Shown here: positions 1 to 13,162 of the stretch, one piece after another
How positions within the stretch are numbered: the first letter of the stretch is position 1
Layout: every line of letters starts with the position of its first letter
Source of the DNA: Anaerolineae bacterium
GTDB taxonomy: Bacteria; Chloroflexota; Anaerolineae; B4-G1; SLSP01
Length of the DNA: 13,162 nucleotides
Reading direction: 5' to 3'
NCBI GenBank assembly: GCA_016934645.1
Contig: JAFGSL010000313.1
Coordinates: forward strand, 1-13,162
Translations under genes and position numbers: made by a program
The notes under the pieces: model-generated
Databases searched by the model: none
What the model saw: the letters and a program-made list of their open reading frames with translations, nothing else
Told to the model about the DNA's origin: nothing

Positions 1-271
1 GGACGGCGTGCTCGTCGCCAGCGTGCTCTCATATTGGAACCCCGACGACAGAATCGGTATCACCGACGATGTCTTTGTCTTACCCGAATGGCGCGGGCGC
101 GGGATCGCGAAGTACCTGGTCAACGCAGGTCTCGCTTACCTGCGCGCTCATGGTCTGGAACACGCTCGCCTTGAAGTCCTCACCAGCAACCCACCCGCCG
201 TGTCCGTCTACAAGGCTACGGGGCATACCATCGTGAATGAGGAATGGCTGTTAGGACTGTATATCCGCTGA
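1..271 (+). CDS. GNAT-family N-acetyltransferase, C-terminal part (5' end outside window)
   Basis: The reading frame is open from the left edge (first full codon at base 2) to TGA at 269-271, so about 89 C-terminal residues are seen and the true start lies upstream. The stretch VFVLPEWRGRGIAKYLV matches motif A of GNAT enzymes, where R-G-R-G-I-A forms the acetyl-CoA pyrophosphate loop after a beta strand. The later VYKATGHTIVNEEW has the usual motif B pattern, a helix with a tyrosine followed by a G-[HF] turn and a last strand. GNAT enzymes transfer an acetyl group from acetyl-CoA to an amine; the substrate cannot be read from this fragment. It is convergent with the minus-strand operon and separated from it by a long palindrome, so it is probably unrelated to that system. 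Confidence 0.85.
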   Translation, partial: DGVLVASVLSYWNPDDRIGITDDVFVLPEWRGRGIAKYLVNAGLAYLRAHGLEHARLEVLTSNPPAVSVYKATGHTIVNEEWLLGLYIR

Positions 272-279
272 GGACAAAA

Positions 280-336
280 ATGTAGCGCGGACGTCTCGCC
301 CGCGAGCAGGACGCGGGCGAGACGTCCGCGCTACAT
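280..336 (-). terminator. 25-bp perfect palindrome; terminator-like hairpin for the minus-strand operon
   Basis: Bases 280-304 and 312-336 are perfect reverse complements (25 bp, GC-rich) around a 7-base loop at 305-311. On the minus strand the stem runs into a T run (A's at 276-280 on the plus strand), the form of an intrinsic terminator for the operon whose last stop codon is at 423. On the plus strand it lies 8 bases after the GNAT stop and could also end that transcript, although no T run follows on that side. The stem is longer than an ordinary terminator needs. Its sequence looks like the dispersed palindromic elements found between genes in many GC-rich genomes, so it may be a mobile or repetitive palindrome used as a terminator. 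Confidence 0.7.
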
Positions 337-422: not shown

Positions 423-797
423 TCAACGACGGAGCTTGCCAAGCGCCTGATGAACCTCGGCAAGCAGTGCCTCCCGTCCCTCCAGCGCCGCCTCAAGTAT
501 CGCACGATGCATCGGGCGCGCGTCTGCATCGACAGCGTCCTCACGTCCGATTTCGGTACAGGTGTTCAAATCACACTGAAAGGTGATGCACGTGTAGCCC
601 TGTCGCTTCACCACCGAAACACCGGCAGCCGCAAGCGCCGCCACATCCTCAGATGCGGCGACGCTCTCTAGTTGCAACGCATCCACGCTGTAGGTACACA
701 CCTCCAGCGATGTGACGTCTGCGATCAAAGGTTGCACGCGGGCCTGCAACTGCTGTACAAGCGTCGCTGCCGCCTGTTGCAGGTTCTTGCTGGGCAT
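423..797 (-). CDS. Small stand-alone protein, divergent copy of the operon's repeated alpha/beta domain
   Basis: This 124-aa protein is not a family I recognise. It starts with ATG at 797, only 6 bp after the stop of the 134-aa gene; no clear Shine-Dalgarno is seen, so translation is probably coupled. It aligns with the 134-aa neighbour and with the C-terminus of the last peptidase: an N-terminal helix, then a strand (SLEVCTYSV), a variable loop, a second strand (GYTCITFQCD), an acidic loop, and a C-terminal helix with the shared histidine (MHRAILEAALEGREALL), ending in a basic tail. It is the most diverged of the four copies: the conserved tryptophan before HxxxV is absent, as is the proline of the third strand, and it carries an alanine-rich insertion at residues 48-58. 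No signal peptide or membrane segment is seen. Its role is unknown; as the last gene of the operon it may be a soluble partner or decoy copy of the domain. Confidence 0.75.
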   Translation of the reverse strand: MPSKNLQQAAATLVQQLQARVQPLIADVTSLEVCTYSVDALQLESVAASEDVAALAAAGVSVVKRQGYTCITFQCDLNTCTEIGREDAVDADARPMHRAILEAALEGREALLAEVHQALGKLRR

Positions 798-803
798 GTG
801 GAA

Positions 804-1208
804 CTAGCGACTCTTCTTCAAAGCATCAAGTGCCGATGCAGCCGCATCCCCGATGATGCGAAGCATCGTAGTACGGTTCTGCAGCGCCTGGCTCACCGCG
901 GCCTGGTGCATATCCCACACAGCTCCATCAATCTGCCCGCTGTCGTTGACCGGCAAGCACACAATGGCGTCGCTGTCGAAGGCGATCCGCGTATAGGCGC
1001 GCAACTGCACACCCTCTCCCGACACGACCTTATCGTTCTTCTTGTTGGGATCGTCTAGCACTTTGGCAAACTGCCCTTCGGTGATAGTGTACGTACGCAC
1101 CTCAAGCTCAGAGATGTCGGTGATGAAACTCTCCACCTTCGCCGCCAATGCGCTGGCGAACGTCTGCACCGAGGACTTCAAATCTTTCGTATTGCTGGTT
1201 TCCGTCAT
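804..1208 (-). CDS. Small stand-alone protein made of the operon's repeated alpha/beta domain
   Basis: This 134-aa protein is not a recognised family. The ATG at 1208 is preceded by AAGGAG with a 9-base spacer. The whole protein is one copy of the domain at the end of the last peptidase. It has an N-terminal amphipathic helix (residues about 10-33), strand SELEVRTYTI, a charged loop, strand LRAYTRIAFDSD, a third strand ending in a proline, an acidic turn (DSGQIDGAVW), and a helix WDMHQAAVSQALQNRTTML running into a C-terminal helix with basic residues. The peptidase copy has RAYTHIDFDGD and LWAIHQQTVREAQANRAKS at the same places, so the relationship is visible by eye. It has no membrane segment and is probably cytoplasmic. 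A 78-bp spacer with a hairpin separates it from the preceding gene, so this gene and the next may be produced at a different level from the upstream genes. Confidence 0.8.
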   Translation of the reverse strand: MTETSNTKDLKSSVQTFASALAAKVESFITDISELEVRTYTITEGQFAKVLDDPNKKNDKVVSGEGVQLRAYTRIAFDSDAIVCLPVNDSGQIDGAVWDMHQAAVSQALQNRTTMLRIIGDAAASALDALKKSR

Positions 1209-1217
1209 GGCAAATAT

Positions 1218-1223
1218 CTCCTT
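1218..1223 (-). promoter_or_regulatory. Shine-Dalgarno AAGGAG for the 134-aa gene
   Basis: AAGGAG on the minus strand lies 9 bases before the ATG at 1208. It supports independent initiation of this gene after the 78-bp spacer. Confidence 0.7.
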
Positions 1224-1244
1224 ATTATGGTATAAGTTATGGAC

Positions 1245-1274
1245 CCTTATGCAGGTTCGAAAACCTGCGTAAGG
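1245..1274 (-). promoter_or_regulatory. Intercistronic hairpin with UUCG loop
   Basis: On the minus strand, bases 1274-1262 and 1257-1245 pair as a 13-position stem: 7 bp next to the loop, one C-A mismatch, then 5 bp. The four-base loop reads UUCG. It lies between the stop of the 255-aa gene (1287) and the ribosome binding site of the 134-aa gene. No T run follows, so it is unlikely to be a complete intrinsic terminator. An mRNA processing or stability element that sets a different output for the two last genes is more likely. This is inference from sequence complementarity only. Confidence 0.5.
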
Positions 1275-1286
1275 ATGGCTGAACGC

Positions 1287-2054
1287 TTACAAATTTTGAA
1301 GTTGAGGCCACGACTGGCGTAGTGTCTGTAACACATCCCGTACAAAACGCCAGACCGCGGGTAAAAGCAATAATTGTCCACCCGGAACCGCGGCTTTGAC
1401 GGCCAATCCAACCGCCCCGGCTGCGACCACTGACGCAACACTGAGCAACGCCAACCGGGAATCCAGCGCCATCTGCACGGCCCGAATATGTAGCGCTGCC
1501 ACGTCCGATTGGCTGCCAGGGACCCAGTGTGTCTTAAAATCACCTGTCCAGCTTACAGCGGTGAGACCCACGTCCACTCCCACAATCGTTGTACGTATAT
1601 ATGCATAATGCGTCACGATACGCTGCACTTCAGCGACAAAAGCATTCCACTGCCGGACAATCTCCTGCTCCTCAAATGTTGTCCCCAACGGGATCGCGTA
1701 GGATACTGGCGAGGGTTGAAGACGATCCACCGCGGTCAGCAGCGCGGCTTTCTCGACCAACAGGGGATCTGTCGGACTGAACGAGGTCGCCTCCGGTCGC
1801 CCTAGTCCCACCAGATCCGATTCCACGCGCGTCAGGTCTTGCCAAGCCAGCGTCTGAACGCGCGCCTGGGCCTCAAGCAATGCCGTGGCCTCTTCAGATG
1901 AAGCCGGCAGACGCACGTGCCAAGTCGGCGACGATGGCGATGCATCCGCCGCCGCAAATGAGATAGCAGAGGCCACCTGCACCTCCCACAATCCCGTCGG
2001 GTCGGTTCCACCGGGTAAGGTTACCCCGGAAAGCGCGAAGCCGTAGTCGTCCAT
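1287..2054 (-). CDS. Membrane-anchored protein carrying the operon's repeated alpha/beta domain
   Basis: This 255-aa protein matches no family I know. I chose the ATG at 2054, which overlaps the stop of the preceding peptidase as TGATG; a TTG three bases earlier is an alternative. No Shine-Dalgarno is seen, which fits translational coupling. Residues 1-50 are polar and possibly strand-rich; 52-112 are mainly helical. Residues about 140-205 align with the small repeated domain: GLTAVSWTGDFKTHWVPGSQ matches the strand-turn-strand with its GD and VP, and ALHIRAVQMALDSRLALL matches the helix with the conserved histidine and arginine. Two hydrophobic stretches follow, at about 201-223 and 226-238, enough for one membrane helix or a hairpin, with a basic patch and an amphipathic tail behind. 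It is therefore likely a membrane anchor or membrane-acting member of the system. It could be an effector, a docking site for the peptidases, or a cleavage substrate. Confidence 0.8.
   Translation of the reverse strand: MDDYGFALSGVTLPGGTDPTGLWEVQVASAISFAAADASPSSPTWHVRLPASSEEATALLEAQARVQTLAWQDLTRVESDLVGLGRPEATSFSPTDPLLVEKAALLTAVDRLQPSPVSYAIPLGTTFEEQEIVRQWNAFVAEVQRIVTHYAYIRTTIVGVDVGLTAVSWTGDFKTHWVPGSQSDVAALHIRAVQMALDSRLALLSVASVVAAGAVGLAVKAAVPGGQLLLLPAVWRFVRDVLQTLRQSWPQLQNL
1440..1637 (-). other. Repeated alpha/beta domain, copy in the membrane protein
   Basis: This region encodes residues about 140-205 of the 255-aa protein. It shares the GD-x-K...VP strand pair and the HxxxVxxAxxxR helix with the C-terminus of the last peptidase, and runs directly into the hydrophobic segment. 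The alignment was made by eye and the boundaries are approximate. Confidence 0.6.
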
Positions 2055-4447
2055 CAAGGCTTAAGATTTTTCAACAAGTTAGTGGCAAGCTCGGCCATCG
2101 CCTGGATGGATTTGGCGCGATTGGCTTGCGCCTCGCGGACCGTTTGCTGATGAATGGCCCATAGTTCCTCATCGACGTCACCTTCGCTGTCCTCTGGGAC
2201 GTAGACCTTCATATCACCATCGAAATCGATATGCGTGTAGGCGCGGATTTTGGCATTCTGGGTGTTCCCTTGTGCCACTTCGACCAGATTGCTGGTCGAA
2301 TAGGTTTCGACATTCAGGGTCAGGATGTCGGTCGCCGCCGCACCCACTGCCGCAGACAGTTGATTGGTGAACTTTTTTATGGAACCGGTCAACCCGTCGA
2401 ACTGCTCACGCAAACCGAAATCCATGGCAGCATCCACGGTTGTTGCTTGCTGGCTCTCGGAAACGCCGCCCGCCGTCTGAGCCGCGCCAAAAGACTGTAC
2501 AACCACCTCGCCCAACCCCGGTCGCGCAGCGGGAGATTCCTCCGCCTTCGCCAGAGGGATATACACTGCCGGATCGCCGATCACCACGTAGCCGCGCGCG
2601 TCGTTGTTCGCCGTCCACATCTGCGTCAGATCGTAGTTGTTCACAGTGGCTGCATTGTGTTGCCGTTCTTCCAGCACCTTGCTCAACTCCGAGGACATAT
2701 CGGCATAGCGCAGATTGAAGCCTGGATCGGTCGCCCAACCCACGGGGCCGCCGTTGAGCAAGTGCCGCAGTGCGGCGACGAAATGCGTGTTGTCCAGGTC
2801 GCCGGTAGGTTTGAGGAACGAGTAGCCCCACGCCCGTTCGACGTGGCCCAAAACGGCCAGCGCCCCACGCTTCAACAACTCGTTCGGCAAAGCGGCAATG
2901 AATCCTTTATCGGCAATCGGCTGTGGCGTTTTGAAATTCGGCGAGGCAAACTGATCCAGACGCGGCGTTCCCGCGCCGTAACAGGCGAAGAGCACAACGA
3001 TCATCCCCAGTAGGTTGGCCTCCGGCGCCAGATCTTCAGCGGCAAAGTAGTGCTGGCGTTCGAGCCGCCCGTTGGGACCAGGCCATTCCTGACATAGCAA
3101 CGCGCCCTGGTACAGCAATTGCTTCGAATCGCCCTTGGGGAACTCCATACCGTGGCTGGCCGTCAGCAATAGGGCCGGGGTCTTGGCCGGGTCGCCCCCC
3201 AGAGTTTGACGCAACCGTTCGCGCGTGGCCTGGCCTGGACCAATGCACGTATCGAAATCCCACGCATACTCCAGCGCCACCCCGCGATCCGCCTCCATCT
3301 GACTGAGGTTATCCAATAAGGGACGCAGCAGGTACTTGGCGCTCATTTGCGTCGCCTTATCGTCGGGATTGGACGCGCCGAAGAAGGTAGCCTGGCGGGG
3401 TAATTTTACGTCGCCCGTCTCGGCGAGCACGACGTTGTGCGCATAACGCGCGTAGGCCTCGTAGTCCTCACCAAAATCGATACGCCCGACGCCACGCATC
3501 ACATCAAGCTGGTACTGGAATTCAAAGGGAATCTCCTCCGGGCTGCCCACCAGTAACACGTAGAAAGGCATCGCGCGCGGATCGGCCAAACCAGGGCCAA
3601 CGCGATGACGCTGTAAGAACTTGGTCTTGGTCTCTTCCGGACGATAGCCGTCTGGACCTTTGTAGATGTGAAAAAGCGGACCGGCCTGCTGCTGGCGGCG
3701 GGTAATCAGCTCAGACAGCGCGACTTCAACCTGCTGCTGCCTTTGCGGGGACCAGGCCGCCGGGAAAACGATACCCCATCCGGCCTGCGCCAGATCGGTA
3801 GGGTCTTCGACATCCTCGGTTAGAGGGAACGCACGCATAGCGTACGAGGTCTTTTTGTCGGCCAATTCGTTCTGGCGTTTCTCCGCCTCGAATGCATCCC
3901 AGACCTCTTTGAGCATGACCTCAAGTAATGCCTTTTGTGCAGGTTCCATCTCCGTGAAAAGCGCCTGTTTGTTCACCGTTACGATTTCATTGAACATCGC
4001 GTCGAGTGTTTCAAGCAGCATGTGATACCGCTGCTCTCCTGTACTCGCAAAGACCTTGTGAAACGTGTCCAGTAACTGATCGTAGTCTCGGGGGCGGCCA
4101 AGCAAGACCACAAACTCAGCCGTCTGCGTTTTACTCAATCCCACCAGCACCGCATTACGCTCCGGCGTCATATTTTCCAGGAGTACATCCCACTGCCCTT
4201 TGCTCAACAGGGCATCTCCCAAAGCAGGCTGTGCTTCCTCCAACATTGTGCGTTCCGCATGTTTTTCATAGAAAGGACGGCCTTCGATACGTGCCGCCAA
4301 CTCATCCGCCGACATCGGCGACAAACCATACCGCCCGGTTACGCCGTTCACGCCATTGAAAACCAGATCGCCCTCGAACACGTCAATGATCTCTTGTGAT
4401 GCTTGAGGTTCAAGGAAATCAGCGAAACCTGCATTTGAGATACCCAT
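2054..4447 (-). CDS. CHAT/C25-like caspase-fold cysteine peptidase with C-terminal repeated domain (third of three)
   Basis: I place the start at ATG 4447 (797 aa) because AGGAGG lies 8 bases before it; an in-frame start at 4528 would overlap the preceding gene with no such signal. An N-terminal motif at residues 28-44 (LVFNGV...GRYGLSP) is shared with the two sister peptidases. The next 150 residues are helical but unlike the sisters and shorter. From residue 222 (GWGIVFPAAW) the catalytic part is conserved: PFYVLLVGSPEEIPFEFQY, GVGRIDF, catalytic His432 in LLTASHGMEF, catalytic Cys489 in VVLFACYGAGTP, then GALAVLGHVERAWGYSF and GYVVIGDPAVYI. These SHG and ACxxG blocks are the His-Cys dyad of clan CD (caspase, CHAT, gingipain) peptidases. 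A linker rich in A, G, S, T and Q (about 633-684) leads to a C-terminal copy of the small alpha/beta domain. It has no signal peptide or membrane helix, so it is probably cytoplasmic. The substrate is unknown; operon partners such as the membrane protein are candidates. Confidence 0.85.
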   Translation of the reverse strand: MGISNAGFADFLEPQASQEIIDVFEGDLVFNGVNGVTGRYGLSPMSADELAARIEGRPFYEKHAERTMLEEAQPALGDALLSKGQWDVLLENMTPERNAVLVGLSKTQTAEFVVLLGRPRDYDQLLDTFHKVFASTGEQRYHMLLETLDAMFNEIVTVNKQALFTEMEPAQKALLEVMLKEVWDAFEAEKRQNELADKKTSYAMRAFPLTEDVEDPTDLAQAGWGIVFPAAWSPQRQQQVEVALSELITRRQQQAGPLFHIYKGPDGYRPEETKTKFLQRHRVGPGLADPRAMPFYVLLVGSPEEIPFEFQYQLDVMRGVGRIDFGEDYEAYARYAHNVVLAETGDVKLPRQATFFGASNPDDKATQMSAKYLLRPLLDNLSQMEADRGVALEYAWDFDTCIGPGQATRERLRQTLGGDPAKTPALLLTASHGMEFPKGDSKQLLYQGALLCQEWPGPNGRLERQHYFAAEDLAPEANLLGMIVVLFACYGAGTPRLDQFASPNFKTPQPIADKGFIAALPNELLKRGALAVLGHVERAWGYSFLKPTGDLDNTHFVAALRHLLNGGPVGWATDPGFNLRYADMSSELSKVLEERQHNAATVNNYDLTQMWTANNDARGYVVIGDPAVYIPLAKAEESPAARPGLGEVVVQSFGAAQTAGGVSESQQATTVDAAMDFGLREQFDGLTGSIKKFTNQLSAAVGAAATDILTLNVETYSTSNLVEVAQGNTQNAKIRAYTHIDFDGDMKVYVPEDSEGDVDEELWAIHQQTVREAQANRAKSIQAMAELATNLLKNLKP
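2057..2395 (-). other. Repeated alpha/beta domain, copy fused to the peptidase C-terminus
   Basis: This region encodes residues about 685-797 of the 797-aa peptidase: helix, strand LNVETYST, strand IRAYTHIDFDGD, strand MKVYVPEDSEG, then the long helix WAIHQQTVREAQANRAKS. It is the clearest copy of the domain also seen in the three downstream genes. The two sister peptidases end at the GDPAV block and lack it. Confidence 0.75.
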
Positions 4448-4455
4448 AGTGTTAG

Positions 4456-4461
4456 CCTCCT
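4456..4461 (-). promoter_or_regulatory. Shine-Dalgarno AGGAGG that fixes the start of the third peptidase
   Basis: A perfect AGGAGG on the minus strand lies 8 bases before the ATG at 4447. It decides this start over the longer in-frame one at 4528, which would lie inside the preceding gene. Confidence 0.85.
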
Positions 4462-4481
4462 GAAAATGCTGAAAGTGCAGA

Positions 4482-6830
4482 CTACGACTCATCTTTGGGC
4501 AAAGTGAGTCGCACAGCGGGATCGCCAACGATGATATAACCGCGCGCGTCGTTGGTGGTCGTCCAAAGTTCGGCTAGCTGGCGCGCATCGGTACTAAGCG
4601 GGCCAAACGATGGCTCGAGTGCAGTGGCAATCTCCGACGAAAGTGCTAAATAGCGTAAGTTGAAGAAATCCATTGCCTCTCCCAGGGGATACCCCCTGAG
4701 CAATCGATCAAGCGCGCTTTCGAAGACCGCGATATGCTGCCGGCTCCGCGTTTTTAAGCCCTCAGCTTGTTCGTCGTGTTCGTCGGCTTCCCACAAAAAT
4801 GAGGTTCCCCAGGCGCGCTCCACGTGCCCGACTACAGCCAACGCACCGCGTTCGAGACTCAAGAGCGCCTTGGGCAAATCGGCAATGAAGGCGCGTTGCG
4901 CGATAGACTCGCCTCGGGTTTTGTACCGTTGTTTGTAGTACGCGTCGTACCGGGGCGTGCCAGCGCCATAACAGGCGAAGAAGAAGGCAATCATACCTCG
5001 CACGTCGAGCGCGTCGGCCTCACGCACATCGCGTCCACACAAGTAGTGCCCCGGCTTGACCTCCGTTGTTCCGCTTTCAGGCCAGTCACTACAGACAATC
5101 GCACCCTGTTCCGGCTCTTGACGAGCGCGGTGTACCGGATTTTGGTAATCAAACTCCAATCCGTGACTGGTTGTGAAGAGCAGCGCCGGGCGCTCTGGAC
5201 CGCGTAGGAGGGTGAGCAACCGGGTCTTGTTCGCGTCATCATCCTGGATCAACGTGAAGTTCCAGGGTACTGTATATCTACGCTTATGTTTCACCAGAGT
5301 ATCTTGCAAGGGCTTGGCCAGATAATCGCGACTCAACTCTGTGGCCTCGTCGCCAGCATTGTGTACAGCAAAGAAAGTGACGTTGGCAGACGTTGTCGCC
5401 GTCCCTCGCTCGGCAGCGACAACGTTTTCAGCGTAACGGCGATAGGCCGCGTAGTCATTACCAAAATCGATACGTCCGACGGCAAATTGCGCATCCAGCC
5501 CGTATTGAAACTCGAACGAGATTTCTTCTGGGCTACCCACAAGTAGCAAATAGTAGGGTACTCCTCCCTCGCGTGGGTTGACCGGTTTGGCAGGATCGGC
5601 ATGGCGTCCCTCACGATTCAAGAACGCCCGCGCCGTATCGGTTGGCCGGTATCCACCTGTTCCGTCATAGATTTGAAAGAGTTCTTGCCACCTTGGATGA
5701 AAGCCCTTGTCGTTGCGCAAGGACAGCAATTCGTCGAGCGACTTCGTGTAAAGTTCGTCCTGGTCCAATCCCAGAAGAGCCAAATCTACCTGAATGAGAC
5801 GATGGCAAAGCAGCGGAGATAGCGCTTCTTTGATCCTGGTGATATATTCCTGGCCCGCATACTGGGGGAAGATGATACCCCATCCGGTTTGCTGTAAGTT
5901 TCGAGGGTCGATCCAGGGCACAATGCCCAATTCCCAGCCCATATTCGGCAAATGACTCAACCAGTCTCGTAAAGCCTGCAACAGGGCCGGCCAATCGATT
6001 GCGATCCCCGTATCAAGAACGATTTCATCCAGGCCGGCAATGAGCCTGTCGACCAGGTCTGCCCATACAAGTCCCCGTCCTCTACCGGATAATGCTGCCA
6101 GATGTTGAACCAATCCCTGAAGTTGGCGGCTTGGGCTATCGGGGAACCGCTGCAGCTTTTCCAACAACGTGCTCAATGCCTTACTGACAGTATCAGCATG
6201 CCTTTCCAACGCTTTTACTGAGTCTATCTGCAGAGCAGAGAGCAGTTGAGTTAGCTGGTCAAGCCACAAACGGCGTTCTTCTAGCGATTGGGCTAAGGTC
6301 ACTCCTTTTTCACTGGTAAGCAGAGTCCGGTTTATGTACGTAATGAACTGCTTGGTTTTTTCTTTCAAACTCTTCTCGAAGTCGGCTTTGTCCGGCCTTA
6401 CCCCTAGTAGTAGAGACTGTAAACCGATCTGATTTTTGCTCAATACGTCTTTAACAATTTGCCCTACTTGTCCAGCCGTATCCACACGAAGCGTACTCGC
6501 AAGTTGCTGCACCATACCGTCTATCTGAGCATCTACACCTAGCACAATCACGAAAAGGTTATGAGCGATGTATTTCAACCAGTCTTCTCGTGTGGACAAT
6601 TCACCGCGAAAGAACTGCTCCTGACTCTCAACAAGCATCTCGACAATTTGCTGAACCTTGCTAGCGTTGGCAAATGCCCGCTTCAGTTGATTCTCCAGGT
6701 CTTTGACTCTATCCGCTTCTGCCTCATCGTCCTTTTGGATGTGCGCCACCAACGTCTCCGCCGTCATCGGCTCCAGGCCAGGACTCCCATCCGGGCGCAA
6801 CCCATTGAAAATCAAATCTGGTTCGCTCAC
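4482..6830 (-). CDS. CHAT/C25-like caspase-fold cysteine peptidase (second of three)
   Basis: This 782-aa protein starts with GTG at 6830, 6 bases after AGGAGA and 21 bp after the stop of the first peptidase. Residues 6-22 hold the shared N-terminal motif (LIFNGLRPDGSPGLEP), followed by PMTAETLVAHI. A long helical region (about 35-305) is homologous to that of the first peptidase. For example, REDWLKYIAHNLFVIVLG here matches REAWITALARHLLMTILG there. The catalytic part begins at GWGIIFP (316-322) and has YYLLLVGSPEEISFEFQY, VGRIDF, His556 in LFTTSHGLEF, Cys620 in FFFACYGAGTP, GALAVVGHVERAWGTSF and GYIIVGDPAVRL near the C-terminus. The dyad is intact, so activity is expected. Clan CD enzymes of this kind cleave proteins, often after basic or acidic residues, but specificity cannot be read here. 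It has no signal peptide or membrane segment, and it lacks the C-terminal repeated domain of the third peptidase. Confidence 0.87.
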   Translation of the reverse strand: MSEPDLIFNGLRPDGSPGLEPMTAETLVAHIQKDDEAEADRVKDLENQLKRAFANASKVQQIVEMLVESQEQFFRGELSTREDWLKYIAHNLFVIVLGVDAQIDGMVQQLASTLRVDTAGQVGQIVKDVLSKNQIGLQSLLLGVRPDKADFEKSLKEKTKQFITYINRTLLTSEKGVTLAQSLEERRLWLDQLTQLLSALQIDSVKALERHADTVSKALSTLLEKLQRFPDSPSRQLQGLVQHLAALSGRGRGLVWADLVDRLIAGLDEIVLDTGIAIDWPALLQALRDWLSHLPNMGWELGIVPWIDPRNLQQTGWGIIFPQYAGQEYITRIKEALSPLLCHRLIQVDLALLGLDQDELYTKSLDELLSLRNDKGFHPRWQELFQIYDGTGGYRPTDTARAFLNREGRHADPAKPVNPREGGVPYYLLLVGSPEEISFEFQYGLDAQFAVGRIDFGNDYAAYRRYAENVVAAERGTATTSANVTFFAVHNAGDEATELSRDYLAKPLQDTLVKHKRRYTVPWNFTLIQDDDANKTRLLTLLRGPERPALLFTTSHGLEFDYQNPVHRARQEPEQGAIVCSDWPESGTTEVKPGHYLCGRDVREADALDVRGMIAFFFACYGAGTPRYDAYYKQRYKTRGESIAQRAFIADLPKALLSLERGALAVVGHVERAWGTSFLWEADEHDEQAEGLKTRSRQHIAVFESALDRLLRGYPLGEAMDFFNLRYLALSSEIATALEPSFGPLSTDARQLAELWTTTNDARGYIIVGDPAVRLTLPKDES

Positions 6831-6836
6831 AGTCTA

Positions 6837-6842
6837 TCTCCT
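6837..6842 (-). promoter_or_regulatory. Shine-Dalgarno AGGAGA for the second peptidase (GTG start)
   Basis: AGGAGA on the minus strand lies 6 bases before the GTG at 6830. It supports this non-ATG start, which also keeps the conserved N-terminal FNG motif at the very beginning of the protein. Confidence 0.8.
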
Positions 6843-6851
6843 ATGCTATAT

Positions 6852-9131
6852 TCAATCCAAATCGTGATGCAGCATGACCTTTAGCCGCACCGCCGGGTCG
6901 CCAATGACGACATACCCGCGTGCGTCGTGGTTGGACGTCCACAGTTCCGCCAGGTAAGCGTCAGATTCTACGCGCGACTCAAATGCGCCCGTCAACTCAG
7001 CGGAAAGCGCCGCGTAACGCATATCAAAGTAGTCCATCGCCGCGCCAACGGGATAGCCGTGCAACAGGCGATCCACCGCGCTCTCGAAGACGGCCAGGTG
7101 CTCGGTATGGCGTAGTTCGCCCGGACCCGCGTGCTGCCCCGGCCCCAAATACGAGAGACTCCACACGCGCTCGATGTGCCCGATGACCGCCAGTGCCCCA
7201 CCCTGCGCCAGACTCAACATCGCCTTGGGTAGCGCCGCCGTGAATGGGCGTTCGGCAATAACCGCACCTCTATCCATAAACGCGCAGCGGTGGTAATCGT
7301 CAAGTCTCGGCGTGCCCGCGCCATAACAGGCAAACAGGAAGGCTATGGTACCCAACAGGTTCACATCCTGGTGCGCAGCCAGCACATCGCCTGAAAGGTA
7401 GTAATCGGGCAAAACTTGTTTTTCAGCAGGCCCCTGCCAGTCGGCGCAGACCAATGCCCCCTGGTTGTCCCGCTGCTTCGCCGGGTCGCCGGGATCGAAC
7501 TGCATTCCGTGGCTGGCAGTAAAGAGCAGAGCCGGCGCTTTATCGCAGCTTAACACATCCAGCAACTTCTCGCGCGTCGTCTGCTCCGAGGAAATGACGG
7601 TGACTTTCCAATCGGGGAAAGTATCAGCTTCCTTCCCCGAACGCGCTACCTCGATCCGCTTTTCCAGGCGCTCAGCGAGGGGTTTGACAAGATACTGCGC
7701 ACTGAGCCACGTCGTCTCGTCCCCTGAATTGAGCACCGGGAAAAAGACAACGTCGGGTGCAAGCTGAAAATCATCCGCCTCCGCCGCCACAACGCTGCGA
7801 GCATAGGCGCAATAGTCAGCGCCGTCATCGAAATCCACACGCCCAACGGCGTACTGCACGTCCAGGCCGTATTGGAATTCAAAGGGAATCTCTTCCGGGC
7901 TGCCCACCAACAACAAGTAGTAAGGAACGCCGTTTCCTTTGGGGTTGGCAGGTTGCGACGGATCTGCATTATGACGGCTGAGAAAATTGCGCGCATTCTC
8001 ACCAGGCCTGTACCCTTCTTCATCCATGTAGACTTTGTAGAGCTCTCCGGCCTGCCGCCTCCGCAATGCCAATAGCGGTTCGAGTGCCTCCTGAATAGTA
8101 GCCAATCGCTCAGGCGACATCATCGCGGGGAAGATAACACCCCAGCCAGCCTCATCGAGCTTGAGTGGATCAGCCCAGGACACAAGTCCTTTGCGGCGAG
8201 GCCCCGGTGTAAAAGAGTCAAGTAAGATATCCAGCCACGCGTTCAACACCCCGAGCAAGGACCTCCAACCTGGAAGCATCACGCTATCTGCTTGCACGAC
8301 AGGCAACAAATCACGTTCCAGGATGTCGATAAGTGTAGACCATGCGATAGACTCCCATAGCCGTGACGTGGGATTGAGGTCGTGAATCAATTGGGTGTGC
8401 CAACCGATACCGGAATCGGGCAATGCTTGCAATCTCGTGACCAATTGTCTGATCGAGTCGATGACAAGGTTACTACTTTCCCGCAAGGCTCTGAACGGTT
8501 CAATCGGTAGTTCGCGGAGTTGTTGGCACATCTTTGCCAGCCAAATTGCGCGCGCCGCAGGCGTTGACTCCAACACTAAGAGTTGCTCCGGACTGAGGTA
8601 ATCCCGGATGATCGCCCGCCCCATATGTTGCACCCGCAACTTCAATTGCACTAAGTTCTCCATATAATTATCAACATCGTCGGTTTTCTGCGGCAAGAGC
8701 AATTCCTGCAGATCCTGATTCCCCCATCTTTTTGTGAGAAACGCCTTGACGATTTTCTCGACCCCTTGCTGTGTCTCCACTTCCAATTTGCGCGCCAACT
8801 CCTGGACGTTGCCCGCGCCGGCAGCCTCTTCGCCCAAAATCGTCATCAGTAGGTGCCGCGCTAGTGCCGTAATCCACGCTTCACGCGACATAGGCTCTCC
8901 CTCCAAAAGCGCTAAGCTCTGCGCGGTGAGGTAATTCACAATCTCCACCACTTTGTCCGTGTTCCGCATCGCCTGCTCAAGTTGTATGGCGAGATCCTGT
9001 TCGCGCTTCCGGTCAGCCCAGATATGATCCGCTAGCTCTTTGGCTGTCTTTGGGGACAACCCGTAACTGCCGTCGGGCTTGAGGCCATTGAAATATAATC
9101 TATCCGATGTCTCAGACCGGATTTCGTTCAT
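6852..9131 (-). CDS. CHAT/C25-like caspase-fold cysteine peptidase (first of three)
   Basis: I place the start at ATG 9131 (759 aa): it overlaps the STAND stop codon as ATGA and is preceded by GGGGGA 6 bases upstream. A longer in-frame start at 9200 would lie inside the STAND gene. Residues 12-27 carry the shared motif (LYFNGLKPDGSYGLSP), then KTAKELADHI. A helical region of about 270 residues matches the second peptidase. The catalytic block starts at GWGVIFPAMM and contains YYLLLVGSPEEIPFEFQYG, AVGRVDF, His541 in LFTASHGMQF, Cys602 in FLFACYGAGTP, GALAVIGHIERVWSLSY and GYVVIGDPAVRL. The dyad is complete, as in clan CD peptidases. It is directly coupled to the STAND gene, so it may be the peptidase most closely tied to the switch. 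No secretion signal or membrane helix is seen. CHAT and C25 share these blocks and I cannot choose between them by eye. Confidence 0.87.
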   Translation of the reverse strand: MNEIRSETSDRLYFNGLKPDGSYGLSPKTAKELADHIWADRKREQDLAIQLEQAMRNTDKVVEIVNYLTAQSLALLEGEPMSREAWITALARHLLMTILGEEAAGAGNVQELARKLEVETQQGVEKIVKAFLTKRWGNQDLQELLLPQKTDDVDNYMENLVQLKLRVQHMGRAIIRDYLSPEQLLVLESTPAARAIWLAKMCQQLRELPIEPFRALRESSNLVIDSIRQLVTRLQALPDSGIGWHTQLIHDLNPTSRLWESIAWSTLIDILERDLLPVVQADSVMLPGWRSLLGVLNAWLDILLDSFTPGPRRKGLVSWADPLKLDEAGWGVIFPAMMSPERLATIQEALEPLLALRRRQAGELYKVYMDEEGYRPGENARNFLSRHNADPSQPANPKGNGVPYYLLLVGSPEEIPFEFQYGLDVQYAVGRVDFDDGADYCAYARSVVAAEADDFQLAPDVVFFPVLNSGDETTWLSAQYLVKPLAERLEKRIEVARSGKEADTFPDWKVTVISSEQTTREKLLDVLSCDKAPALLFTASHGMQFDPGDPAKQRDNQGALVCADWQGPAEKQVLPDYYLSGDVLAAHQDVNLLGTIAFLFACYGAGTPRLDDYHRCAFMDRGAVIAERPFTAALPKAMLSLAQGGALAVIGHIERVWSLSYLGPGQHAGPGELRHTEHLAVFESAVDRLLHGYPVGAAMDYFDMRYAALSAELTGAFESRVESDAYLAELWTSNHDARGYVVIGDPAVRLKVMLHHDLD

Positions 9132-12100
9132 TGTTGTTCCCCCACACTCGCGACCTGTACTTCTGGGACACCGGAAACGTACACTTCCGCCAAGGACCAC
9201 ACATCCTCAAAAGGAACCAGATAGCGGCGAATGGTACGATCCCACGAACCGCTTGCCAGATGTTTGCCATCCGGGCTGAAAGAAACACTCCACACCAGGT
9301 CGGTGTGCCCGCCCAATTCGGCGATGAGGACAGGTTCACGCTCCGGGAAGTTCTCAAGATACCACAGCCGCACAACCCCATCCCGCGCGCCCGTCGCCAG
9401 AAAGCCATTTCCGTCGGCGTATTGCGGGCTGAACGCCACGCTGTAGACATTGACGTCGTTTGTATGGCGCAGAGGGGTCTTCAGGGCTGTCGTCAATGTC
9501 TCGGTACTCCAGATGCGGGCCGTGCCATCCCACGCAGCAGAGGCCAGGTAACGGCTGTCCGGGCTGAACGCCAGGCCCATCACGTAGTTCCCACCGTGAT
9601 CAGTGAAAGTAACAACCGGCGTCACCTGTATAGGATTTCCCGTCACAGGAGGATCAACACGCCATAGCACAACACTGGCACCATAGTAAGCGGACGAATA
9701 GCCAGTCGCAATCCAGTGCCCATCCGGGCTGTAGGCCACACTCCTGACATAACCAGGATAGCTCCGCCCTGGAATGACCAGGTCGGCCCCTGCGCTCCAC
9801 GTAGCCGTGTTCCAGAGGATGCCCCTGTGATCGTCGCTGCCGGTCACAAGATAGGCTCCGTCGTCGCTAAACCCGGCAGTATATACATTTCTAGTGTGCC
9901 CGCGCAACACGGCGATAGGTTTAGAAGCAAATTGGTCCCAGACGTAGGCGTTGTTATCCGCCGCACACGTGACCAAGTATTGCCCGTCCGGGCTGTAAGT
10001 AAGGTTCCACACCGTCCCGCCGACCGGCGCCAGTTCACGCACTGTCTCGCCGGTCCTCACGTCCCAAATACGCGTCCTGCCTTCATCGTCGGCAGAAGCT
10101 AGATGTACACTATCGGGACTGTACGCCATGCCCCGCACGCGTGTCTCGTGCCCACTGAGCGTGGTCAGTCCCTGCTGAGCGACATAGCCCCGGTTCCACA
10201 CGCGCAGTGTGTAATCCGCAGTCCCGGCGACCAAAAAACGGTTGTCTGGTCTGAAGGCCACCGTGGTTACTATATTCCGGGGGCCGGAAAGCAATGTGAG
10301 CAGAGCATTGGGATTGCGTGCCATCACGTCCCACACGCGCACCGTCAGGTCACGCGAGCCGGAGATGAGGTAACGCCCATCAGCGCTGAACGCGATACTT
10401 GCCACTTCGGAGGTGTGACCCGTCAGTGTAAGCAGCTCCTGCCCGGTGTGCGGGTCCCAGATGCGGATCGTCTTATCATCCGAAGCCGAGGCCAGGAAGC
10501 TCTCGGCGGGACTGTAGGCAATGGCGTTCACTGCGCCGGTGTGGCCACGCAAGGTATGCGCCAGGGTCGCGGAGACGCTGCCGGGTGCATCGGAGGTAAG
10601 CGCCCAGATATAGATCGCACCGTCGAAGGAGCCAGCCGCCAGATAATACGGTTCGTAGATCGGGCGCGCGACGTTGCGCAGCGGGCGAGGATCGAAGGCG
10701 ACACTACTCACCCGCGCAGTGGGTTCGGTGAGGGTCAGAAGAGCAGTCGCCAACACAGTATCGCCACGCGTTGCCAGTTCCCACACCCGGACGATACCAT
10801 CCGCCATACCGCCGGAATAGTCGCGGTAGACATTGTCGTAGTCGCCGCCAGTCGCCAGATAATAGCCGTCCGAGCTAAAGCCAACGGCATAGATATCGTC
10901 GTACACGCCAAGGGGCGTCGGCACAACGAGCCAGTCCAGCCACTCGCCACTATGCAGATCAAGCAAGCCCACGGTACCGACTTTCACTTTCGGACGGTTG
11001 TCATCCCCCCCTACCGCCAGTATGCGCTCGTCAGGGCTGAGCGCCAACGACCACGTCGCACCCCGTGTCTCGTAGACGGCGGTCTGGTGTAGCCAATTAC
11101 TCTCCTGTGACCACGCGGTAACCTGGCCTACATCATTACCTACGTAGAGGGTGCGGCCGTCGGTGCTGTAGACGACGCTGTATGGATTGCCAGACAATCC
11201 TTCGATCATCTGCGCGGGGTAGAAATCCACCAACGCCTGGCGCAGCGCACTTTGCGCCCGCTGGGTATCAATCTCGCCAAGCAGGGGCCGCCACAACGGT
11301 GTCGCGGCGTCGCGGTAGGTGGGATCGCCGAGCAGCACGCCTTTACGCGCCTGGAGAATGCTGTTAATCTGATCGTTCTCCATGGAATAGGCCAACGCAT
11401 CCGCCGCTGCCTCGCGGGAGCGCGCCACCATGCGACTGCGTTCCGCACTCCACGCCAGGAACGTGATCAGCGCCAGGATAACAACACCGAATACTGTCGC
11501 CAAAATTTGCACGGTCCGTCGCCGCCGGTGGGCCTGCTGTGCCAACTTGCTGGCTTCGAGGAACTCGCGCTCGTAGGGTTCGGCATCGAGAGGGTGCGCT
11601 TCCACCCACTGCGTGGCCTCGTCCAGCGCAGCATCCCGGTAGAGAAGGCTTGCTTCCTTCGTCGCTTGCCAGCTCTTCGCCGTCATGCGCAGCGGCGTCG
11701 AGCGTTTGGCCTCCCACCCCTGGTTGGAACTGAGGATCGGCGCGATCAGCCGGTCGTGGGCCAATTCGTACCAACGCGCGCCCGCCCGCACCTCCGAGCG
11801 GATGATGTAGTGATGGCTGAGCACGTCGACGGCGGGGTTAGGCAACGTGCCGGTCGTCTCCGAGCCGCGCAGCACCAAACCGCGCGTCTGCATCGGCGTA
11901 ATCAACTCGTTGCCAAACCAGCGCCGCAACAATTTCTGGCTGGCGCCGGTCTTTTCCTGCGCAGCGTCCAATGCACTGCGGTAGAAGTCGATCAGCGCCC
12001 GGTCGATGCGCCCGTACTCCTCGACTTCAACCCACTGGATCATTTTGTCCTCTTGATCCGGCAAGTTCTCCCACAGACGGCTGCACACCACCTGCAACTG

Positions 12101-12898
12101 CACCGGTTCCACAAACGGGCCGATCGTGGTGGCCTCTGCGCTTTCATCGTTCGAACCACGCTGCACGCGAATACGACAAAGATCGTCCACCATACGCTCA
12201 GCCACGCCCTCGTCAAAGCCAATGCCCTGGGACTGTGCGGGTTGCACAATCGCCTCCAGAGCGCCCTCCGGACCGAGCAGCTCCATGCGGAAGCGCGCGC
12301 GCATTCGTTTAGGCAACAACGTCAAATAGGGATCAAGTTCCGCCAGGTAATCCTTGCGCATCGCAAAGAGAACGCCCATGCCGGGTAGCGCATCCAAGGC
12401 ATCGCGTACCTGGATGAAAAAGCCCTCGGCGTCCTGCCAGCGATCGCGGTGCGTGGTGAACAACTCCTCGAATTGGTCGAGGATAAGCAGGAACGGTTCA
12501 TCCCCTTCACTCTCGCTGTCAGGATGCTGGCACAAAGCCTGCAAAAACGAGGTCAGTGTGTGCCCCTGCAGACGTTCCGGCGTCATATTCTCGCCCGCCA
12601 GCGACATCAACGCGCTGCACACGAAAACGTTGCCCACGGCATCGTGCAAGGCGCCGGGCGGCGCATCGCTGCTGACGCGCGCGACGGGCAAAACGCGGAA
12701 GCCTTCATCTTCCAGCGCCGGGATCACCTGCGCATTGAGCAGCGAAGTCTTACCCGCGCCGGATTTGGCGTAGAAGAGGACGGTGCGCTCGGCGAGCAAC
12801 AGCGCGAGTAAGTCACGTGCCTCCCGATTGCGGCCGTAGAATTTGCTCTGATCCCCGCGTTCGTAGGGGCGCGGGCCGACATAGGGATTGTCTTTCAC
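9128..12898 (-). CDS. STAND-type NTPase (nSTAND1-like) with one membrane segment and 14 WD40 repeats
   Basis: This 1256-aa protein starts with GTG at 12898, overlapping the SIR2 stop as GTGA, with GGAGG 10 bases upstream. The N-terminus PYVGPRPYERGDQSKFYGR is typical of the novel STAND family. The Walker A loop is FYAKSGAGKTSLL (about residues 42-54, Lys50), Walker B is FLLILDQFEEL (136-146), and a sensor-like MRKDYLAEL follows at 180-188. A helical winged-helix-like part follows, ending in WYELAHDRLIAPIL (376-389). A hydrophobic segment at about 463-484 after an RRRR cluster is a likely membrane helix. Residues about 565-1240 form WD40 repeats; I count 14, which would make two seven-bladed propellers. 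STAND proteins act as ATP-dependent switches that oligomerise when their sensor repeats bind a trigger. Here it probably controls the SIR2 and peptidase partners. If the hydrophobic helix crosses the membrane, NTPase and WD40 parts lie on opposite sides; it may instead be peripheral. Confidence 0.92.
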   Translation of the reverse strand: MKDNPYVGPRPYERGDQSKFYGRNREARDLLALLLAERTVLFYAKSGAGKTSLLNAQVIPALEDEGFRVLPVARVSSDAPPGALHDAVGNVFVCSALMSLAGENMTPERLQGHTLTSFLQALCQHPDSESEGDEPFLLILDQFEELFTTHRDRWQDAEGFFIQVRDALDALPGMGVLFAMRKDYLAELDPYLTLLPKRMRARFRMELLGPEGALEAIVQPAQSQGIGFDEGVAERMVDDLCRIRVQRGSNDESAEATTIGPFVEPVQLQVVCSRLWENLPDQEDKMIQWVEVEEYGRIDRALIDFYRSALDAAQEKTGASQKLLRRWFGNELITPMQTRGLVLRGSETTGTLPNPAVDVLSHHYIIRSEVRAGARWYELAHDRLIAPILSSNQGWEAKRSTPLRMTAKSWQATKEASLLYRDAALDEATQWVEAHPLDAEPYEREFLEASKLAQQAHRRRRTVQILATVFGVVILALITFLAWSAERSRMVARSREAAADALAYSMENDQINSILQARKGVLLGDPTYRDAATPLWRPLLGEIDTQRAQSALRQALVDFYPAQMIEGLSGNPYSVVYSTDGRTLYVGNDVGQVTAWSQESNWLHQTAVYETRGATWSLALSPDERILAVGGDDNRPKVKVGTVGLLDLHSGEWLDWLVVPTPLGVYDDIYAVGFSSDGYYLATGGDYDNVYRDYSGGMADGIVRVWELATRGDTVLATALLTLTEPTARVSSVAFDPRPLRNVARPIYEPYYLAAGSFDGAIYIWALTSDAPGSVSATLAHTLRGHTGAVNAIAYSPAESFLASASDDKTIRIWDPHTGQELLTLTGHTSEVASIAFSADGRYLISGSRDLTVRVWDVMARNPNALLTLLSGPRNIVTTVAFRPDNRFLVAGTADYTLRVWNRGYVAQQGLTTLSGHETRVRGMAYSPDSVHLASADDEGRTRIWDVRTGETVRELAPVGGTVWNLTYSPDGQYLVTCAADNNAYVWDQFASKPIAVLRGHTRNVYTAGFSDDGAYLVTGSDDHRGILWNTATWSAGADLVIPGRSYPGYVRSVAYSPDGHWIATGYSSAYYGASVVLWRVDPPVTGNPIQVTPVVTFTDHGGNYVMGLAFSPDSRYLASAAWDGTARIWSTETLTTALKTPLRHTNDVNVYSVAFSPQYADGNGFLATGARDGVVRLWYLENFPEREPVLIAELGGHTDLVWSVSFSPDGKHLASGSWDRTIRRYLVPFEDVWSLAEVYVSGVPEVQVASVGEQQ
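9179..11206 (-). repeat. WD40-repeat coding region (about 14 repeats)
   Basis: Repeats of roughly 40-60 residues show the pattern GH....V..[VI][AS][FY]SPDG..LA[ST]...D....[IV]W. Clear examples are AYSPAESFLASASDDKTI, AFSADGRYLISGSRDLTV and SFSPDGKHLASGSWDRTI. Several early repeats carry long insertions, for example after FSSDGYYLATGGDYDNV. The repeats differ from each other, so they are not a recent expansion. Confidence 0.85.
11447..11512 (-). other. Predicted membrane segment in the STAND protein
   Basis: This encodes residues about 463-484 (VQILATVFGVVILALITF and flanks), a strongly hydrophobic run between a basic cluster (HRRRRT) and a charged segment (SAERSRMVARSRE). The positive-inside rule is ambiguous because both flanks are basic. 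Confidence 0.75.
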
Positions 12899-13162
12899 CG
12901 GTTTGCCGCCTCCAAATACTCCTGTAGTTCCGCGATAAACTGTAAAATCGTTCCCACGTACACGTTGATCTCGTTGTCCTGAAAATAGCTGCGCATGAAT
13001 TCATGGACGGCGGGCAGGTCATCGTCAAGCACATCGTCCGGTTCGAGCTGCACGCCAACGTGCTTGAACCGGCGGCGCTGTTGCTGCGGCGCGATCAAGC
13101 CGCGCAGCAACACGCGGAAGCCCCAATCGTTGAGCCGGTAGCCGAGGAACATCAGCGAGCTA
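12895..13162 (-). CDS. SIR2-like domain protein, C-terminal part (5' end outside window)
   Basis: The minus-strand frame is open to the right edge, with residues SSL before the internal Met at 13152, so the protein continues beyond the window; about 88 C-terminal residues are seen. SSLMFLGYRLNDWGFRVLLR matches the end of the SIR2_2-type domain, where a strand and LFLGYSLxDWxFRxL motif closes the Rossmann core. The rest (HVGVQLEPDDV..., YFQDNEINVYVGTILQFIAEL) fits the usual tail of these proteins. Bacterial SIR2-like proteins in conflict systems generally hydrolyse NAD+ when a partner senses infection. The NAD-binding core that would show catalytic residues lies outside the window. It overlaps the STAND gene by four bases (GTGA), which indicates tight coupling between the two proteins. 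Confidence 0.8.
   Translation of the reverse strand, partial: SSLMFLGYRLNDWGFRVLLRGLIAPQQQRRRFKHVGVQLEPDDVLDDDLPAVHEFMRSYFQDNEINVYVGTILQFIAELQEYLEAANR
12909..12913 (-). promoter_or_regulatory. Shine-Dalgarno GGAGG for the STAND gene (GTG start)
   Basis: GGAGG on the minus strand lies inside the end of the SIR2-like gene, 10 bases before the GTG at 12898. It supports this non-ATG start and the GTGA overlap. Confidence 0.7.

Follow-up and report, generated by a model that had tools for sequence, protein, structure and literature searches.

A putative operon joining STAND-WD40, CHAT-SIR2 and gingipain-fold peptidase genes in an Anaerolineae genome: candidate for a receptor-controlled protease pathway

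Gene content of the operon

We analyzed a contig of 13,162 nucleotides from an Anaerolineae bacterium (JAFGSL010000313.1, assembly GCA_016934645.1), here called the window, which carries genes for a probable CHAT-SIR2 fusion, a STAND-WD40 protein, three C25-like peptidases and three small proteins. All eight genes are on the minus strand, neighbors overlap or are separated by at most 78 bases, and the run is closed by a strong hairpin. The original prediction, made from the letters of the sequence, had described eight same-strand genes joined by overlaps or short gaps and ending at one terminator, a layout that the map of open reading frames and the hairpin bear out. The nearest named relatives belong to the Anaerolineae and other Chloroflexota. 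In what follows, loci in other contigs are numbered with L and genomes with G. The features, in the direction of transcription, are:

12895..13161, minus strand: probable CHAT-SIR2 fusion gene, C-terminal 88 amino acids only, cut by the contig end; SIR2_2 match
9128..12898, minus strand: nSTAND1 NTPase, predicted transmembrane helix and WD40 propeller, 1256 amino acids (Pfam)
11450..11506, minus strand: predicted membrane helix, STAND residues 465-483, with an RRRR stretch before it (hydropathy)
6852..9200, minus strand: C25-like (gingipain-fold) peptidase 1, long helical N-terminal region; likely start 9131
4482..6830, minus strand: C25-like peptidase 2, laid out as peptidase 1 by sequence, 45% identical to it
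2054..4528, minus strand: C25-like peptidase 3, shorter N-terminus, small domain at the C-terminus; probable start 4447
2075..2392, minus strand: small-domain copy 1, residues 713-818 of peptidase 3 (hidden Markov model)
1287..2057, minus strand: 256-amino-acid protein whose C-terminal half contains the divergent small-domain copy 2 (profile comparison)
804..1208, minus strand: small-domain copy 3, stand-alone protein of 134 amino acids (AlphaFold2 and sequence)
423..797, minus strand: small-domain copy 4, stand-alone protein of 124 amino acids (sequence; orthologues at 73-90%)
280..336, minus strand: hairpin with perfect 25-bp arms, followed by a T-run on the operon strand; probable operon terminator

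The cut gene, with 88 residues available, matches SIR2_2 with an expect score (E) of 5e-4, which falls short of the Pfam cut-off, and 82 of these residues (93%) are identical in the C-terminal end of a complete protein, L003:1173-3215, in which a CHAT domain (residues 58-372, E 5e-33, 115 bits against a cut-off of 24) is followed by SIR2_2 (residues 494-634, E 2e-16). The similarity to SIR2 noted originally is therefore real, but the full gene, as seen in this relative, encodes a fusion and not a plain SIR2 protein; the product of the cut gene is probably a CHAT protease joined to an altered sirtuin-like domain. Residues were counted in 43 distinct full relatives, excluding two genes with broken frames (one row, L072, is misaligned at the His motif). 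The CHAT dyad is kept, with His in 43/43 and Cys in 42/43. Relatives of both halves are immune proteins, and the SIR2 half shares homology with the NADases ThsA and KomC. Its pocket is altered: the position of the canonical catalytic His, placed by alignment to KomC His146 (the residue mutated in the KomC H146N entry) and lying in a region outside the window, is Phe in 36 of the 43 and His in none, and in 35 the GxG motif of the NAD loop is replaced by GP-. The catalytic Asn is retained in 28, and 34 keep a different His, located two residues before the canonical site. Because the canonical His is absent throughout, the NAD-depletion arm of the original prediction is doubtful; since the upstream His is so often retained, NAD hydrolysis by the fusion could still occur. 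At L057:5465-8526, CHAT (with an FGE-sulfatase domain) and SIR2_2 are encoded by two adjacent genes ahead of a STAND-WD40 gene.

The STAND protein matches nSTAND1 far above the curated cut-off (E 4.9e-34, 119 bits against 27.1) and contains 13 WD40 stretches recognized by Pfam. The Walker A Lys and Walker B Asp that had been read from the sequence are present in all 33 aligned rows with letters at these positions, the window included (3 of the 36 rows are gapped). By hydropathy, a counterpart of the predicted helix lies just past the STAND domain and ahead of the propeller in 30 of the 32 STAND proteins long enough to judge, again including that of the window. The flank ahead of the helix is the more positive one in 25 of the 30, equal in 4 and less positive in 1, which by the positive-inside rule would place the ATPase inside and the propeller outside. 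The STAND protein is thus probably membrane-anchored, its WD40 propeller may lie outside, and the helix predicted by hydropathy speaks against a cytosolic Avs-type sensor. The sole PADLOC match on this protein, HEAT-ARM_XIII, extends across the WD40 part.

The likely start of peptidase 1 gives a 4-nucleotide overlap with the stop of the STAND gene. The three peptidases are 40-45% identical in pairwise comparisons, and all keep His and Cys; peptidase 2 has orthologues of its own at 72-74%. Pfam C25 scores 20.8 and 16.7 on two of them, against a cut-off of 23, the third has no match, and NCBIfam names none of the three. Among relatives, members at L107 (25.8), L017 (25.9), L108 (53.2) and L049 (26.3) pass the Pfam cut-off, and L008:12102-14174 has no match. 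The His-Cys pair is invariant (58 of 58). The predicted fold of peptidase 1, the sole one modeled, is gingipain-like with a His-Cys dyad, in agreement with the early reading of three caspase-fold peptidases with intact dyads, and Craspase is the second structural relative of the model. At one further locus, L118:5631-12861, peptidase, small-domain and 256-amino-acid genes stand beside two Peptidase_C14 caspase genes, with no SIR2 or STAND gene in the 15 kb covered.

The four successive genes earlier credited with a small domain do carry it, three copies (peptidase 3 and the two last genes) being recognized by sequence and the copy in the 256-amino-acid protein only by profile comparison (91%, E 9e-7, 56 columns), its single-sequence comparison being weak. 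Thr, Asp, His and Arg are common to the four copies, and Asp80, His101 and Arg112 are invariant across 62 small-domain sequences. The AlphaFold2 model of copy 3 (predicted local distance difference test score, 88) consists of a helix, strands and a long helix, and its comparison with solved structures gave no convincing relative. We found 106 small-domain homologues, all short, as follows from the length limits of the search. The 256-amino-acid family has 22 members, counting that of the window, in which a hydrophobic stretch (residues 202-220, hydropathy 2.35) overlaps the small domain; 12 of the 22 listed members have a stretch with hydropathy above 1.6. No convincing match to Pfam adaptor families was obtained for members of either family. 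In an adaptor organization of the EAD type, one non-enzymatic domain is shared by several neighboring proteins; here four neighboring proteins carry copies of one domain, whose invariant residues would permit an enzymatic or a binding role. A stand-alone small-domain gene also occurs beside a MoxR-like AAA/vWA protein at L160:4806-7331, a single case with a possible link to ternary conflict systems.

Linkage of the parts in other genomes

Peptidase relatives were collected from genome contigs, where the best 80 of 152 matches correspond to 79 loci, with a peptidase called in 71. At the 48 loci with 3.5 kb or more of upstream sequence, neighbors were counted within three genes of the peptidase; CHAT-SIR2 genes were present at 17 of these loci, STAND genes at 27, and any of CHAT, CHAT-SIR2 or STAND at 32. 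We also sampled 150 genomes from the class of G001, using thresholds of E <= 1e-150 for CHAT-SIR2 and E <= 1e-50 for the peptidase. CHAT-SIR2 occurred in 9 of these genomes and the C25-like peptidase in 12, and all 9 were shared, with the two genes on one contig in 6 and on different contigs in 3. Without the three genomes that had supplied rows of the query alignments, 6/6 CHAT-SIR2 genomes fall among the 9/147 peptidase genomes (P = 6.6e-9). Peptidases rarely found beside SIR2 or STAND genes would have marked the arrangement as a chance assembly in the original prediction; the 32 linked loci and the nine-for-nine co-occurrence show the opposite.

A STAND gene comes next after 41 of the 45 CHAT-SIR2 genes, 38 times within 100 bp and 3 times at a distance of 0.3-1.1 kb; these 45 genes were not randomly sampled, many of the loci having been reached via the peptidase. 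Of the other four, L065 has CHAT-SIR2 in tandem, L073 shows overlapping gene calls, the gene of L085 lies close to the end of its contig, and L112 is a plain exception. Fusions join the parts as well: L107:4241-6973, directly downstream of a CHAT-SIR2 gene, encodes a 910-amino-acid fusion of nSTAND1 with a C25-like peptidase, and at L029 CHAT is fused to nSTAND1. The constant element is the CHAT-SIR2 and STAND pair, while the downstream genes vary, so that the view of all eight genes as one fixed system is not supported. Since distant bacteria share combinations of these parts, the cluster looks like a real pathway, of death or immunity, and not a chance neighborhood.

A candidate receptor-controlled protease pathway

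We favor, with a probability of about one half, a protease pathway under receptor control, of the kind seen in STAND conflict systems, in which a transmembrane STAND receptor drives a cascade of caspase-fold proteases. In the mechanism that we infer, the STAND protein would span the membrane, with the WD40 propeller outside the cell and the nSTAND1 ATPase switch inside. Binding of a trigger, for which phage, an envelope change or a neighbor's product are candidates, would cluster the ATPase domains, and the cluster would gather CHAT-SIR2 proteins, switching on the CHAT protease. This protease, or the cluster itself, would then activate the gingipain-fold peptidases, which small-domain contacts may hold together and which would act as executioners, the most likely outcome being cell death or dormancy. 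For the SIR2-like domain, nucleotide binding or regulation of the protease appears more probable than destruction of NAD. Computation gives the set of genes and its order, the intact dyads of C25 and (in relatives) CHAT, the recurrent linkage, the fusions, the predicted fold of peptidase 1, the predicted membrane helix and the altered SIR2 pocket. The topology, clustering, order of activation and death output are proposed by analogy with STAND proteins and caspase-fold proteases elsewhere, such as Apaf-1-like proteins and Craspase. More tentatively, the layout might be inflammasome-like: an outward WD40 receptor with a STAND switch would act through a CHAT protease gated by a pseudo-sirtuin on gingipain-fold executioners, assembled on a small-domain scaffold with its invariant Asp, His and Arg.

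Open-access literature searches gave no description of this gene combination, and against the published STAND and peptidase conflict systems the altered sirtuin, the membrane topology and the gingipain-fold peptidases are surprising. If the proposal is true, the bacterial layout would resemble the death-receptor and inflammasome pathways of animals more closely than the cytosolic Avs sensors, gingipain-fold peptidases would have an intracellular signaling role, and the fusion of a pseudo-sirtuin with a protease would offer a switch that can be tested. The idea is open to direct testing on the STAND-C25 fusion and on larger operons from public metagenome-assembled genomes, such as that of L002, an environmental Chloroflexota genome in which a single long peptidase takes the place of two.

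Several observations weigh against a single receptor-controlled pathway. No CHAT or STAND gene lies within three genes of the peptidase at 16 of the 48 loci, and in the class sample the CHAT-SIR2 genes of L112 and L109, two of 11, lack a C25-like gene within the 16-17 kb covered. The small domain occurs in 15 of 301 Chloroflexota genomes, only one of which (G001) has the linked operon; ten carry the C25/small-domain module without CHAT-SIR2 or STAND in the stretch covered, and the remaining four have small-domain genes without a called peptidase. Eight of the ten unlinked modules (L149-L153, L155, L156 and L158) are ordered as peptidase with small domain, 256-amino-acid protein and small-domain protein (in G208 the contig stops immediately upstream), that of G240 has broken frames, and that of G183 is split between two places, with a CHAT gene near one of its two parts. 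At L156 the module is flanked by sufE on one side and by a histidine kinase/response regulator pair on the other, aldehyde dehydrogenase being a further neighbor; sufE is also found at L149, and similar gene lengths flank most of the others. A full CHAT-SIR2 gene is present elsewhere in five of these ten genomes and a broken one in two more. All 11 such loci, in this second group of Chloroflexota genomes, pair with STAND and show no C25-like gene in the stretch covered (the contigs of L170 and L174 end inside the STAND gene). Where scanned, the next gene after this pair encodes an alpha/beta hydrolase in one case and in three a giant FG-GAP repeat protein of 1453-2031 amino acids (L164:13709-18070, L167:12873-18251 and L168:521-6616, after CHAT-SIR2/STAND-WD40). 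Genomes G004-G007 (loci L006, L007, L009 and L026) have the peptidase module and CHAT matches but no full-length CHAT-SIR2; the module adjoins nusA and IF-2 at L007, with matching gene lengths at the other three. In the class of G012, outside the Chloroflexota, 5 of 151 genomes have a C25-like gene and G012 alone has CHAT-SIR2 (locus L070, labeled Bryobacterales); CHAT is nearby in two of the other four, STAND in one and neither in one. To these may be added that the CHAT half lies outside the window and is known from relatives, that Ser replaces Cys in two rows of the C25 alignment, and that the STAND topology is read from hydropathy and flanking charge. Because each part also occurs alone, we regard the operon as a union of two modules.

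This separation of the modules is the one point in favor of a chance neighborhood of unrelated genes, a reading that the adjacency of CHAT-SIR2 and STAND, the complete co-occurrence and the STAND-C25 fusion make very improbable. Another reading is a vertically inherited system outside defense, with regulated proteolysis serving development, envelope stress or kin signaling. The unlinked modules at housekeeping sites (nusA/IF-2 in L007, sufE and the two-component pair in L156), a propeller that is probably outside, the giant FG-GAP protein downstream in the second group and a tblastn search of viral contigs that gave no relative are all consistent with it, but the distribution is patchy (9/150, 12/150 and 15/301), gene-content variants are many, and both halves of CHAT-SIR2 are related to immune proteins, so we consider such a role rather improbable.

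In the two-armed defense originally proposed, the STAND sensor would release a SIR2 NADase and the peptidases together, leading to abortive infection. The homology to ThsA and KomC, the frequent catalytic Asn and an upstream His that might substitute agree with this scheme, which the Phe at the canonical His position and the altered GxG make unlikely. Alternatively, the small-domain and 256-amino-acid proteins could be substrates, cleavage freeing the hydrophobic helix of the latter to damage the membrane, much as caspase-like proteases free gasdermin and Csx29 cuts Csx30. The small proteins do lie immediately downstream of the protease, in an order retained in the eight unlinked loci, and both the hydrophobic stretch and the structural relationship of peptidase 1 to Craspase fit; the stretch is nevertheless found in little more than half of the family, and the invariant Asp, His and Arg resemble a binding or active site more than a linker, and we give this scheme a low probability as well.

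Known systems and flanking sequence

Avs5 (AVAST type V) resembles the operon in having SIR2 and STAND domains within one pathway. In Avs5 both are on one polypeptide, whereas in the window and the CHAT-SIR2 loci examined they are in separate frames; here a CHAT protease precedes SIR2, which has no canonical His, and the STAND protein is probably membrane-anchored and has WD40 repeats. Identity with Avs5 was rejected because SIR2 and STAND are on two proteins; as for SIR2 NADases such as ThsA and KomC, none of the 43 relatives has the catalytic His at the KomC His146 position. Gingipain-fold peptidases are best known as secreted proteases. Unlike the gingipains RgpB and Kgp (family C25), the window peptidases have no export signal visible by eye and no membrane helix, they have a large helical N-terminal region (modeled in peptidase 1 and indicated by the sequence of peptidase 2), and their gene context is different. 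Craspase (Csx29 TPR-CHAT) and SAVED-CHAT differ in that no CRISPR or CBASS component was recognized in the window by Pfam, PADLOC and NCBIfam scans; PADLOC named no specific system for the window proteins.

The nearest published kind appears to be the STAND conflict systems of multicellular bacteria (Kaur et al. 2020, PMC7159879; 2021, PMC8195603). The relevant passages describe STAND NTPases, caspase-superfamily peptidases, repeated adaptor domains on neighboring proteins and a presence in phyla that have multicellular members, Chloroflexi included, nSTAND1 and SIR2 (the latter among effector domains) being named in the 2021 paper (PMC8195603). By term search, "gingipain" and the CHAT domain are absent from both texts, and "C25" from the 2021 text, the only one searched for it; passages of the two papers contain no domain resembling the small domain of the window. 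In the two-gene EACC1 system, as outlined in part of PMC7159879, a small alpha+beta protein that is constant and carries a membrane helix likewise stands beside a caspase-superfamily protein. Its family PF19953 was, however, unmatched by 17 members of the 256-amino-acid family (nine families tried) and was not among the 25 listed of 33 weak families for 62 small-domain members (the others match few members, and weakly), and no EACC1 was found in three operon-carrying genomes; for want of a PF19953 match in these scans, identity with EACC1 is not supported. Bacterial metacaspases with NACHT-WD40, in the portion of PMC3501461 that describes them, also unite a caspase-fold protease, an NTPase and WD40 in one pathway, but on one polypeptide with a metacaspase domain, whereas here separate genes encode the parts and the proteases are CHAT and C25-like.

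An exact copy of the arm of the terminator hairpin was not found in 121 relative loci or in six genomes; the longest arm in 20 simple shuffles was 7-11 bp, compared with the 25 bp observed. A convergent fragment of a GNAT acetyltransferase gene (window 2-271, Pfam E 1e-13) is cut by the contig end, and the hairpin starts nine bases past its stop.

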